From: Sipunculus nudus
Taxonomy: Eukaryota; Annelida; Sipuncula; Golfingiida; Sipunculidae
Direction: 5' to 3'
DNA: 64,000 bases
Assembly: GCA_026874595.1 (NCBI GenBank)
Contig: CM049320.1
Location: 20,593,714-20,657,713 of the forward strand
The first letter of the stretch is position 1. Each line of letters opens with the position of its first letter. Position numbers and translations under genes: made by a program. The notes beneath the pieces are model-generated. The model did no database searches. It was not told the origin of the DNA and worked only from the letters and a program-made list of their open reading frames with translations. Below, piece after piece: positions 878 to 6,500 of the stretch.

Positions 878-1404
878 CTATATAACAAAGGTAGATTTAT
901 TAAGTAGGAAATACGACTCATTGTTATCGTGAGAATCGAGAAATGTATTTTGAGCTAACCCCTGTTTATGAACCAAGAACATGAAGGATCTACATCTAGG
1001 TCTCTAAACGCAATGGTTACTAGTACGCTAGAAATGACAATTTTAACCAGATTCATTGAATATATAATTCATGACATATTTTTATCTACTTTGGGATAAC
1101 GTACCACCGGACACTCATTTTAAAAGTTTAATAATATTAGATAGTATATAAAATAGAGTAAATAACTATAAATTACATTTTGTTACTAAGGATAAGATAC
1201 AGGGATCTTCCTGATTGATTTGGGAATCATTCGTTTATTGACACTTGTGATAAAAAGTCCGTAATCCTACCAACTGTACATTGAAACTTGTATACAGTCT
1301 TGTCTCAATATAAAGAGTTATGCAAGTTTAGTTTTCACTAAACAACAAATACAATCACAAATCACAAGTGCGAACATCAAGAGGTGTGTTAGAAAGATGC
1401 AATG

Positions 1405-1406
<2 letters not shown>
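878..1406. other. AT-rich spacer, no feature seen
   Basis: Up to about 916 it matches the sequence next to exon A in R; the rest has no partner in R. No open frame with recognisable similarity was found. Confidence 0.5.

Positions 1407-1467
<61 letters not shown>
1407..1467. repeat. (AT)n array at the 3' end of Penelope element 1
   Basis: About 61 bp of pure AT dinucleotide repeat. It directly adjoins the hammerhead-bearing 3' end of the minus-strand Penelope-like element; a second (TA)n array sits at the element's other end (3511-3569). Confidence 0.95.
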
Positions 1468-1468
<1 letters not shown>

Positions 1469-1492
1469 CTCTAAAGAAAAACAACACTGTTA

Positions 1493-1540
1493 ATTCACAA
1501 CAGTCTGTTTCAAGGGATGCGACCCGATCATCAGGAGAAT
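1493..1540 (-). ncRNA. Hammerhead-ribozyme-like motif (type I layout) of Penelope element 1
   Basis: On the minus strand the order is: stem I 5' side ATTCTC (1540-1535), core CTGATGA (1534-1528), a 16-nt stem II region with a GGG/CCC pairing, core GAAAC (1511-1507), a short loop AGACT, then GTT (1501-1499) as the GUH cleavage triplet, and stem I 3' side GTGAAT (1498-1493). Five of six stem I positions pair. The A15.1-U16.1 and C15.2-G16.2 stem III pairs are present, and stem III is minimal, as known for ribozymes in Penelope-like elements. Stem II is weak next to the core (no G-C at 10.1/11.1), so it may be degenerate. It lies on the same strand as the RT, 3' of it. Confidence 0.6.
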
Positions 1541-2065
1541 GTGGTTAGAATGAAGCTAACGGCGTGGTTTGAAACGCCGAGACTTTACGAGATTACGAGA
1601 TTATGCTTTGTGCGATTCGGGGCGGGGGAGGGGGGCATGTGAAAGACTGACACTGAGCCTATTGTCCTCGGATGCACAATAGGATTGGTCGGGGTACACG
1701 TGCGATACTGGAACATAACAGGGCAGGGCAAAGAGGTTATTTATTGCTTTAAATTTTATAAATAATACAAAGATATATACCAGGATGCTCAATTAGCATA
1801 TTGAACTGATTTCTAATAGGTTCTTGGAAGCAGTAAACATATGAGTAGTATACATAAAAATACACACATACTATGAAAATACACAATATACAAGGCAAAT
1901 ATACAATATAAAAGGCAAATATACTATTCTATACTCATACCAAATGCGATCCACTCGGTAAACTCACCATGATGTAGTGGTAACGCCATGTCCCTCATCA
2001 CTGCAAAGCAATGAGAGAACAACTACCTGAACAGGTAAGTTTGCCCAGCGGATCCTCGTTGGGGA

Positions 2066-2077
2066 GGGGGGGGGGGG
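2066..2077. repeat. Poly-G tract
   Basis: About 12 consecutive G on the plus strand, just 3' of the Penelope endonuclease frame. Length is likely unstable or uncertain in sequencing. Confidence 0.8.
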
Positions 2078-2104
2078 TTAAGGGGGTGAATATTAGTACG
2101 AATG

Positions 2105-2749
2105 CTAGGTTTTAAAATATTCCAGGGTGAATTTGTTTTGATGGCGGCACTTAGAGAGAATTTCAGGTCTTGAGTTCAACAATGATCCGGGGGGGGGGGG
2201 GGGGGGCGTTGCTATAAGTAGCTTTTCAGACAAGCAGAGATCACACTTCCCACAGAAGTAATGTGCAGCCTTGGCAGATATTTCCAAGGAGAGCTTGTAA
2301 TTGATATTGTTGTCTTTTAGTGACCACATGTGTTTAGACAGTTCAGTATTTTTAGCGTGGGATCTGTTCCGAAAGGATTGCTTGTGGTTATTGTATCTTG
2401 TCTTGAAATCACCTTCAGTACACCCTATGTAGTGTTTCACGTCATTGTCTGTTCTAACTGTTGCCTTATAGACAATGCATTTCAGTTGACATTGACCATT
2501 CATAGGACATTCGTCTTTTTTACGGCAGTTACATTGTTTTTGAGGTACATTCACAGCATTGTCAGTATTTAAAACCTTCATATTATGGTTGCTGATCAGG
2601 TTAGATATGTTGGGTAGACAGCTATAGCTAATTTTCAAATTGTTCCTGTTGAATAACCTGTGGTACCTGTGATGTTGAGGGAAGTGTTTTTCAACTAGTT
2701 TCATGAATTGTCCGCCAATGTTGGTTTTTACATGACGGCTGTAGGGGGG
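2105..2749 (-). pseudogene. Penelope element 1: GIY-YIG endonuclease segment
   Basis: Minus-strand open frame; the 199-residue part from Met at 2704 is clear, and the same frame reads upstream as NPPYSRHVKTNIGGQF, a linker typical of these elements. Visible are a cysteine cluster (CNCRKKDECPMNGQC), the GIY-YIG core (VYKATV, then HYIGCTEGDFKTRYNNH with its arginine), the NTELSKHMW stretch and a C-terminal CDLCLSEK motif. The family nicks DNA to prime reverse transcription. A poly-G tract at 2189-2206 adds a run of prolines near the C-terminus. It is separated from the RT frame by a 1-nt shift near 2758. Confident as to family; probably not functional as it stands. Confidence 0.85.
2189..2206. 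repeat. Poly-G tract inside the endonuclease frame
   Basis: About 18 G on the plus strand, read as prolines on the minus strand. Its length determines the frame of the last residues of the endonuclease. Confidence 0.85.
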
Positions 2750-2750
2750 A

Positions 2751-3510
2751 TTAAACCATATTTTTCCTTTTCCTGTTTCTTTTGCTTTTCACTGTGGGTT
2801 CAACATATTTTAAGCTTTCTGAGAACCCGCTTTTCGCTAAAGCTTTGTCATACATAGGTTTGGCTTTCATAAATAGCTCTTTATTGCAGGAGTTGTCAGA
2901 TACACGTTTGCTGATCATCATAGGTATCTGCCTAATGATAGCTTGGGTTTGATTGGATTGTGCGTGGATATAAAGCGGGTCATTGTTCGGTTTTCTGTAA
3001 GGGTAGAAAATGTCATTTTGGAGGTCAAATGTTACGTCTAAGAAATCTGTGCAGGTCAGGTTAGTTTCAATGGTTATCTTTAACCCAACATTGGAAAAGA
3101 GTTTGATCATTTTCTTACGGGTGCTGTCTGCTTTGGGTCCAGACATGTTGGGGAAACAACCTAAACCGTCATCACGATACAGGCCTAGAGCATTTTCACC
3201 AAATTCCTTTTTCAACATATCTAGGATGTATAAACCAACAATTTTGCATACTTCAGCGCCATCAAAACTGCCCATGGTGACGTCAAAACTAGTATGATTT
3301 TTTTTTCACCCAGGTGTTACCGTTGCTAAACAGTAAGCTTTTCTTGCTGTGCAGGATCGTTTTAATAACATCCTTTGGAATGGAGACCATGGTTTTGGCA
3401 AATTCGAGGGCTTTCATGAGGAGATCTTCTGTGATCGAGGGGTAAAAGTCAACAATATCAAACTTTATGAACTTAGATTTTTGTTTCAGCTTCAATTTCT
3501 TGAACCAAGA
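2751..3510 (-). pseudogene. Penelope element 1: reverse transcriptase, frameshifted
   Basis: Minus strand. The frame reads WFKKLKLKQKSKFIKFDIVDFYPSI (in pieces: WFKKLK at the truncated start, then FIKFDIVDFYPSI, RT motif A with its aspartates). At an A9 run near 3300 the frame shifts, then continues with the FDVTMGSFDGAEVCKIVGLY region and motif C as YRDDGLG, followed by thumb sequence up to KRNRKRK. A second 1-nt shift near 2758 puts a stop before the endonuclease. The catalytic Asp pairs are retained. The 5' part upstream of motif A is lost at a (TA)n array. RNA-dependent DNA polymerase of a retroelement; the family call is secure, activity unlikely. Confidence 0.88.
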
Positions 3511-3514
3511 TATT

Positions 3515-3569
<55 letters not shown>
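3511..3569. repeat. (TA)n array at the truncated 5' end of Penelope element 1
   Basis: Nearly pure TA repeat with one CA step. It begins right where the RT frame loses homology. Confidence 0.95.
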
Positions 3570-3571
<2 letters not shown>

Positions 3572-6500
3572 CTCGAGAAATCTTTGCCGGGTGCTTGAAT
3601 CTTGGGGTTCAAGCGTCCGATGGAAGAAAAATTCAGGGTGTATTACCAAGAGAATCAAAGTGCAGGGTGTCTCGAAAACTACACAGACAGTTGAAATAAC
3701 TTTAACTGAAATCAAATGATCAATCAATGACAAGGTTTCTAACCATATAATACGATATTTAAACAAATATATAAGATATGAATTCTTTATAACCATTACA
3801 AATTTAATAATGTAATGACGCTTGTAAACGCTCCAAACTCAGAACAAACTTTTACGACATTTTGGCCTTAGATTGTTCGTAAATCAGTCACATATCCGAA
3901 TAAATAAAGCGAATATTTGAATATTGAATAGGACAAAATGCTACAATATAAAAAGACTTTATACTGCGCGAGTTTTGTATGAATTTCACTTTCCATTGAG
4001 CACGACATTTGTATTGCCATGGTAACCAAAAACGGCACTAGAACAGTCATTCTGAAGGCAAAGGTTGGTTGTTAACTCCAGGCCAGCAGGATTTACACTG
4101 ACACTGGCAGGTAGTGCATTTAGTTTTTTTTCATTCATACTTCGGGAATAAGGAATCCATTGACATTTTAATGAACGCATGCAACTGGTTTTACCAAATG
4201 CCATGAAATGACTTGGGGTTTTCTCAGGAAAATTCAGCTTATAGGGTTCCTAAGATAAATCATGACCTGTCAACAACGTTTTTGCCGGAAAATTTGTTTT
4301 GTGCAATTGCTAAAACACATCATTTATGCTTTTGCCCGGTAAAAGCCATTCAGCGACTCAGTCGTTTGTCACACAATACACCGTGTATAGAGCGCACCAT
4401 AAAGATCTTTTACAATGAAGAGTCACGTGTGTAGACAAATGTATTATTACTGAATAATGTCTTACCAAAATTAACTGCGTGTTATATTTATTCTCCTCGG
4501 CCTAGAGCAAAGCATTTTTTTCTGCAAAGGAAATTATGTTCACATAATGTTTCTAAATAATACAATTATCTGGGGAATTTAATTTTTCTCCTCGGACCTA
4601 TATCATTATTTTTTATTCCTGTGTATGGTGTTCCTGGTCGGCTCATCAAGTGCTTGCAAAGTATTTACCCGACAGTGGATATTTGTTTCTTATATCCATA
4701 TTTTCCCATCGAGACACGTATGTAAACTACATTTGAACGTTTGTTCAGAATGTTCTTGTGTTTAGCACGTATGTTGGCCAGTTCCTTGCCTCCTTAGAAG
4801 TTGTACCTGACTGATAATTTCATCAAGATGTTAGATTTGTTGATTTTATGATACATGTGACTGTAAACCTATCCTGTTTGTCTGTCAGGCTTAAAAGATG
4901 TATTGATATTTCTGTTTCTTTAAAGAAATGTTGCTCGGAAGCTTGCGTAATTGGCCGAATACTGTCATGGGAAAGTACATTCTGGAGTGTACTTCCATTC
5001 TGCCTGGTTTACTAAAATGTCATTTAACATAAAGCCCTTTCATAAACACGTTTTGTTTTCTCACTACTTTAATCATGAAATATAACTCAAACTGCATTGA
5101 AATCCAGATATCAGGTATGTATTTAACCAATCTTATGAACCCAGAGCTGCCAATTACTGGTATTAAAGCGGTCATTAAGGCTGGCCAGGCTTATGCTGAT
5201 TAACGTCAAGAGAGAGGGTGCAGTGATCAGGATAACTTGTATCCAGCTAAAAGAGATCTCTAGTCACCGTATCACCAATCAAACAAAAACCACATCTATT
5301 GGGGAAATATTTTTTTATCCCGACGTCAAACTTATGGTTTCATGCACACCCTACTTGGGTAAAGTTAATTAATAGGTGTTCTTTCACCTAAAGAAAATAT
5401 AATCATTTCAGCAACGCATTTTCGCGACAAGATAGATATATAAGAAATGAACGAATGCTTCACAAATTTCAGTCCTTAATAAGACCATCGTCAATGTCTG
5501 AATTACTTGGTGGAATAAACAAATTTTCGGCAAATATTATCTTTCGTAAACCAATATTCAACATATTCAACAGGCCGCTTAAATCTGGGAAGTATCATAT
5601 ATAAGTATTGTAATGTAATGCTTAGCGTCAGCTATTTTGTAATTTTCTCCTATGTGTTGTGGAACATAAAATGTATGCAAGTAAAGTGTTCTGGCAGAAA
5701 AAAGCACATTATGCTATATATGGACAGTGGATCAATGTATTTCTGGAAGAATATGGTCACAGTAATAGTTACAATGAGGCGAAAAGGGTTTCTACTAATT
5801 ATTGCTGCAATAATCCTGTACATATTACATGGCCGATTGTACCTGCTGGCTAAAGTGAAAGAGGTGGGCTCAGAAACTATTTGTTGCAGTTATTGTATCT
5901 CTTCTGTAGAGGACACCACTGTCTCATAACATAGGCTACGACTAGGTATGGTTACGGAAAGGAATCTATAGTCAAGTACCCGATTTTTTATTATCATTTA
6001 GTTAAAGGGATATGCAGAGGAGGGTGAATATAACTGTATATCTTTGTGAATAAAGTCAAGTTTACAACTGTATATAGAAAACTTAAAATATATATCAGCA
6101 AGCTAGTCGAAGGGCATTAAATCGTGGCATTTTGTTAATTCACACCTGCTTAAAAAACTTGGTAATTGTAGCTTCGAAACACCGTATGTGGGACCATGAA
6201 TGATCCCGAGATCAGTATCATAAGGTTATTCCACAGAAACTCTCAGGTAAGGTTAACAATAAATAAGAATTACATGATATCTAAAAAAAAGTATTTCTTT
6301 CTTCTTCTGTCTACTTTTGTTTAAGATTCCACGGGTTATGTATTTTCTATCTTTTAACTGACTTCATTCACTACGAGTTTAAAATGTTATATGCGTCATT
6401 CACGACTTCACCTAAAATTTACATGATTTTGCCAATAAATGGAGATGATTCTTGAAATATATATTTTTGTTTTGTTTCAAATGATTGTATAAGTAGTTAT

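Follow-up and report, generated by a model that had tools for sequence, protein, structure and literature searches.

A probable worn copy of a minimal type I hammerhead in an abundant Penelope-like family of Sipunculus nudus

A 48-nucleotide stretch on the minus strand of a Sipunculus nudus contig (CM049320.1) recalls the hammerhead ribozyme, and the locus raises the question of whether it derives from a true hammerhead, which element carries it and whether this copy could still cut. In what follows, the window is the whole 64,000-nucleotide stretch of DNA that was analysed. The evidence indicates that the feature is very probably a minimal type I hammerhead in a single, worn copy, placed at the pseudo-LTR/ORF junction of a Penelope-like family that occupies thousands of places in the genome.

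At positions 1540-1493 (-), the two core boxes of the hammerhead are accompanied by the cleavage triplet GUU, by a stem I with five of six pairs and by a stem III of 3 bp, arranged as in type I with the open end at stem I (Table 1), in agreement with the sequence-only reading, which had described the boxes, a GUH triplet and a 5/6 stem I in the right order and strand. The core CUGANGA...GAAA, together with A15.1-U16.1 and H17, is complete. The mispairs are a U·U at 1.2-2.2 in stem I and, in stem II, where only GGG/CCC is paired, a U·U and a C·U at the positions adjoining the core. The G10.1-C11.1 pair at the base of hammerhead stem II is strongly conserved, although not absolutely, and it is absent from the window copy. 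Stem III is self-complementary except for its central A (4/4 outer pairs), so that 8 bp are available in a dimer. The Penelope-like coding pieces end about 0.7 kb 5' of the motif, and an (AT)n array follows it after 25 nt. At 1468-1492, and at the equivalent place in other copies, the series TTAAC...TTGTTTTTCTTCAG followed by AG (CTTTAG in the window) resembles a branch point, a pyrimidine tract and a 3' splice site; the Penelope-like element may hold an intron end just after the ribozyme.

Table 1. Positions of the hammerhead parts and of the host-element features in the window
Feature	Position	Strand	Basis or remark
Stem I 5' strand, ATTCTC	1535..1540	-	5/6 pairs with 1493-1498; family form ATTCAC
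Core box CTGATGA (C3-A9)	1528..1534	-	sequence reading
Stem II region TCGGGTCGCATCCCTT	1512..1527	-	GGG/CCC paired; U·U at base and adjoining C·U
Core box GAAA (G12-A15.1)	1508..1511	-	sequence reading and numbering
Stem III ACAGACTGT	1500..1508	-	ACA/UGU, loop GAC (3 nt), 3 bp as monomer; A1508 common to the GAAA box
GTT triplet, H17 = T1499	1499..1501	-	hammerhead numbering
Predicted cleavage site, T1499 (H17) / G1498	1498..1499	-	from hammerhead numbering
Stem I 3' strand, GTGAAT	1493..1498	-	pairs with 1535-1540
31-nt stretch, cleavage site to (AT)n array	1468..1498	-	ends in ...CTTCAGAGTTATA in most copies read
3' non-coding part (pseudo-LTR and 3' UTR)	1541..2209	-	position between end of EN frame and hammerhead
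C-terminal piece, YIGC...FK.R..NH motif, KCDLCLSEKL end	2210..2761	-	motif reading
Reverse-transcriptase palm piece (MGSFDGAEVC, YRDDGL)	2760..3293	-	motif reading
Upstream reverse-transcriptase piece (IKFDIVDFYPSI), other frame	3301..3486	-	sequence reading
(AT)n array at element 3' end, likely insertion target	1407..1467	.	33/46 copies read run into (AT)n
(AT)n array at apparently 5'-truncated element end	3510..3569	.	sequence reading

The host element is represented by three coding pieces (3486-3301, 3293-2760 and 2761-2210), which are found in different frames on the same strand as the hammerhead. We take FDxxDFYPSI, MGSFDGAEVC and YRDD to be Penelope-like reverse-transcriptase (RT) signatures, and the GIY-YIG-endonuclease-like YIG motif with H...W.LK and a CDLC end at 2210-2761 to mark a Penelope-like endonuclease (EN). 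Pfam gave no match above cut-off for the RT or EN pieces and a PDB sequence search gave no credible one, and the Penelope identity therefore rests on the motifs read by eye and on anatomy; AlphaFold models of the protein pieces (mean pLDDT 33.6 and 35.4) were too poor for a structure search. Scans of viral contigs (two protein pieces, two exact DNA patterns) and of prokaryote genomes (a single exact DNA pattern) yielded no relative. Each of the two frame changes lies near T runs on the plus strand, and two long G runs (about 12 and 18) are present at 2066-2206, toward the 3' end of the element; these may reflect slippage or errors of assembly. Since (AT)n arrays lie on both sides, the element looks 5'-truncated.

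The surroundings are themselves repeated, positions 1-20750 and 43846-63950 of the window being direct duplicates in pieces, about 88-97% alike with indels between them. The second duplicate has no counterpart of 921-3680, the segment in which the Penelope element lies. The paralogous segment at 44.8 kb was considered as an empty site and rejected, because it lacks 921-3680 entirely, which is more than the element; a third copy remains similar as far as about position 935, and thus no clean target site can be derived from the 44.8-kb paralogue. An eroded piece at 28221-28060 (-) resembles the end of a second Penelope-like endonuclease, with 36% identity to the first. The family hammerhead model gave no second strong match in the window.

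With motifs this short, chance has to be considered, i.e. two short boxes and weak stems happening to lie 3' of a retroelement. The box pair with 8-30 bases between occurs three times in the window, against a mean of 0.17 in 100 shuffles, and the two further pairs come without the remaining hammerhead features, as accidental pairs might. A looser descriptor (CTGANGA core, stem I of at least 5/6, 1.1-2.1 paired, stem III of at least 2 bp) gave 0.13 matches per random 64 kb on both strands (60 random sequences); the fuller combination of CTGATGA...GAAA with a stem I of at least 5/6 and a stem III of at least 3 bp is rare: a single case turned up in 300 random 64-kb sequences (both strands), and the real window also holds one, which speaks against an accident. 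Judged from the window copy alone, the chance of such an origin would be small, not negligible.

Two further results are in line with an accident. Rfam release 15 gave no match of any kind in the window at the gathering score, no hammerhead among the matches at E <= 10 around the site, and none at the gathering score in three loci with consensus-type copies either; Rfam thus missed all copies in the sequences scanned, and Rfam-based counts of genomic hammerheads may be too low. Folding energies are also weak. For the window copy, the hammerhead fold was calculated at -1.6 kcal/mol as monomer and -14.3 as dimer, against predicted minima of -9.2 and -25.3 kcal/mol; the family form reached -7.5 against -12.4 kcal/mol as monomer, that is 4.9 kcal/mol above the minimum, and -26.1 against -31.7 kcal/mol as dimer. 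Compared with shuffled sequences there was little or no advantage (z 0.99 to -1.43), and the tail is predicted to form a competing hairpin with the hammerhead.

It is the other copies that decide this point. The genome (1.43 Gb, 153 contigs) was searched with the 640-base 3' part of the element, including most of the tail; the best 40 of 2,104 candidates were scored, with 43 matches. The 39 scored places read, the window's own being left out, held 48 hammerhead stretches, reduced to 46 copies in 38 loci by dropping the two of L039, which overlaps L020; L046 carries a deletion, leaving 45 ungapped copies. The family form is ATTCAC CTGATGA T CGGG TCGCAT CCCG T GAAA CAGACTGT T GTGAAT. The core is intact in 41 of the 45 ungapped copies, and 29 of them also have every one of the 13 pairs (6 bp in stem I, 4 in stem II and 3 in stem III), a frequency of the complete form that in our reading already refutes chance. 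Moreover, the 35-nt family core was found with up to two mismatches at 1,529 forward and 1,442 reverse places, 2,971 in all, and a backwards-pattern control gave 0. Thus the proposal that the 3' part of this Penelope element includes a hammerhead of type I whose stem III is tiny is borne out, since the motif is a standing part of the family in its genome copies. Two findings had been named as counting against a hammerhead: the poor Rfam score, which did occur for the window and the three consensus-type loci, and loss of the core from other copies, which did not. An accidental origin is accordingly extremely improbable.

The same copies separate what is peculiar to the window. At the base of stem II, U·U is present in 44 of 45 ungapped copies and C·U in one. 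Position 2.2 is A in 45/45 and 11.2 is G in 43/45, and the window has T at both; its C·U, which replaces the family C-G, recurs in a single one of the 46 copies (L030), and its stem I U·U in none. Relative to the family form, the window copy has thus lost one pair in each of stems I and II. The weak stem II had been suspected of being either degenerate or an unusual variant, and it proves to be both: the basal U·U is a family-wide variant, and the C·U is a change of the window copy shared with L030.

In 43 of the copies, three with foreign or divergent upstream sequence being dropped, divergence from the consensus is 1.06% in the core, 1.85% in the stems, 2.58% in the loops, 2.84% upstream and 1.74% in the tail. 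The core value, compared with 11 random upstream sites, gives P = 0.02, and this gradient is weak evidence because most differences probably arose after insertion. Among 26 distinct rows, window included, 94.7% of cells are paired, against 37-45% with the partner slid by 1-3 columns. None of the pairs in these rows carries a change in both partners, and in covariation score the rows do not rise above shuffles (440/500 at least as high); without covariation inside the family, the helices are supported by their presence in the common form only. A model built from the rows (R1) scored the window copy, itself one of the 26, at 80.9 bits and the next best match at 13.3. A candidate divergent hammerhead at L009:2781-2834 was rejected, being a truncated copy of the same family outside the 46. 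In L035, a single element has hammerheads as a direct pair, one preceding the ORF and the other at the 3' end, on the same strand as RT/EN.

The way in which the copies end bears on what the motif may do. Among the 46, 33 tails run into (AT)n, 12 continue into the element and one has another sequel, a sample biased toward the tail end because the query included most of the tail. In most copies the inserted end falls about 30-35 nt past the predicted cut site; L036:358-412 is shorter. Eight loci with inverted pairs (L049-L056, of which L056 repeats L037) were chosen by eye among the approximately 100 matches listed for the 35-nt core alone, and the inserted end lies past the tail in 8/8. Their copies are arranged head-to-head; the cores are 9-48 nt apart in seven loci and 610 nt apart in L056. 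In L051 and L054 both arms share private tail changes, as would be seen if one arm were a copy of the other; the arms of L049 and L055 differ. Supposing that reverse transcription of the hammerhead-strand RNA produced these ends, that RNA was not cut at the hammerhead, in agreement with the Anolis element PAc, whose insertion in vitro is unaffected by catalytic mutations (PMC11167929). Head-to-head inverted layouts are known from rotifer Penelope elements, according to a part of PMC3846280. The features published for Penelope-like elements (PLEs), namely tandem and inverted pseudo-LTR copies, a short tail and an AT-rich target, are all present here.

A search for the canonical pattern, with G10.1 and C11.1, gave 275 + 254 = 529 matches, against 15 + 11 = 26 in the control, and about four further families can be distinguished by stem II among the approximately 100 canonical-pattern matches listed. 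From these, 15 small loci were picked by hand and 16 motifs were read; as the core and the basal G-C were demanded by the search pattern, only the remaining features count as evidence. Stem II has 8 bp in one family, 4 bp followed by a bulge and more pairs in another, 7 bp in another and 3 bp in another. Stem I is, for example, GTCAC/GTGAC or GTT/AAC, and one family has only 0-2 adjacent pairs beside the core; the third pair of stem III can be A-U, C-G or U-A. Stem III is fully self-complementary in 13/16 motifs (G-U counted), as expected for dimer cleavage. These different stems around one core are a further argument against chance. The additional families are presumably Penelope-like as well, as seen for the abundant U·U family.

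Downstream of the 16 motifs, (AT)n was found within 80 nt in nine, a GCTC...GAGC hairpin in five and neither in two; the hairpin is also present after the tail in L011, a Penelope-like copy that continues into the element. In L011, L061, L063, L064, L069 and L071, from families that otherwise differ in sequence, this hairpin occurs about 45-50 nt after GAAAC, and other copies run into (AT)n at a similar or shorter distance.

These data allow another explanation of the conservation, in which the stretch is kept for some other job, as a protein binding site or as a dimerisation or priming signal, and the family hammerhead is a dead relic. The predicted best folds are indeed other folds, the tail is conserved along with the motif, no covariation is seen inside the family and the insertion ends read fall downstream of the cut site; moreover, cutting is dispensable for insertion of an Anolis element in vitro (PMC11167929). 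However, the core is the part that diverges least, the other families in the genome have changed their stems around it, and the mispair at the base of stem II is the best tolerated one at that position, according to the part of PMC3088659 that deals with it. On balance, we consider a relic unlikely.

For a minimal hammerhead that still functions in the family, a mechanism can be proposed. In tandem or paired transcripts, two copies would join through the self-complementary stem III, with 8 bp around an A·A, and the joined copies would be cut 3' of U17, leaving a 5' piece that ends in ...CUGUU and a 3' piece that starts with GUGAAUU. The family form, being weak as a monomer and predicted to fold otherwise, would be expected to cut as a dimer or within a protein complex, also because PLE hammerheads may cut as dimers and the hammerhead of the Anolis element PAc showed no activity in the absence of its protein.

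Cleavage by the window copy is likely to be poor, if it occurs at all. A fully active copy, tolerating U·U and C·U in stem II and U·U in stem I and cutting as a dimer or aided by protein, seems quite improbable to us: its core is intact, but it has two broken pairs beyond the family U·U, its stem II is 3 bp behind two mismatches, and the element is only partial, with no second hammerhead in the window. Some published ribozymes make such activity less surprising, since U10.1-U11.1 hammerheads have been described (in the relevant part of PMC3088659), the axolotl HHR_Amex2 cuts despite its U U mismatch, by 22% in 1 h as monomer (PMC7229834), and cleavage of the Anolis PLE hammerhead was not observed when its protein was absent (PMC11167929).

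A broader scheme would treat the region as a signal block shared by several families, in which a hammerhead whose stem III is self-complementary is followed by about 30-50 nt of tail and then by a GCUC...GAGC hairpin, with inserted 3' ends that stop between tail and hairpin, downstream of the cut. The ribozyme would then be a gated switch and not a processor of the template 3' end: held uncut by the competing hairpin formed with the tail, it would dimerise through stem III and be cut only later or on other transcripts, and a stem II weakened by U·U would have been selected in the most abundant family. This scheme is speculative and we regard it as rather improbable.

The genome thus offers a natural series, in which an abundant U·U family (2,971 places) coexists with about four rarer families whose stem II has the canonical base (529 matches to the pattern), and most motifs read in the latter combine a dimer-type stem III with shared flanking signals. 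Such a series may be of use since a review (PMC7761336) regards what hammerheads do in Penelope-like elements as a mystery. The same review describes the minimal type I hammerheads of PLEs and Terminons (Cervera and de la Pena 2014; Lunse et al. 2017), which reside in pseudo-LTRs and may cut as dimers. These resemble the family found here in type I order, tiny or missing stem III, pseudo-LTR location, tandem copies and the proposed dimer cleavage, and would differ at the stem II base, where the present family has U·U in place of G-C.

The closest element described in detail is PAc (Poseidon, Anolis carolinensis), which shares the position at the pseudo-LTR/ORF junction, the AT-rich sites and tail ends downstream of the ribozyme (PMC11167929). 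In PAc, however, the ORF starts at stem II and the cut falls 26 bp after the start codon (PMC11167929); a comparable start at the ATG inside CTGATGA was considered here and rejected, as this ATG opens only 13 codons before a TAA. The main text of PMC11167929 does not mention a U·U, which in the present family occupies the stem II base, and it reports that catalytic mutants of PAc were unaffected in insertion in vitro.

Counterparts for the mismatch are found elsewhere. HHR_Amex2, the hammerhead of an axolotl retrozyme, has U U at the base of helix II and a short stem III and works better as a dimer; differently from the family here, it is a type I hammerhead with loop-loop contacts and belongs to small non-autonomous retrozymes, not to PLEs (PMC7229834). 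Likewise, repeat-type hammerheads with palindromic stem III and U10.1-U11.1 hammerheads, in the part of PMC3088659 devoted to them, match the U·U at the stem II base and the self-complementary stem III for a dimer, and were reported from other organisms. The family-wide U·U is thus a family trait and not decay, corresponding to a published exception among accepted hammerheads; indeed, every trait has a published counterpart, so the kind of hammerhead carried by the Sipunculus family is one already known.
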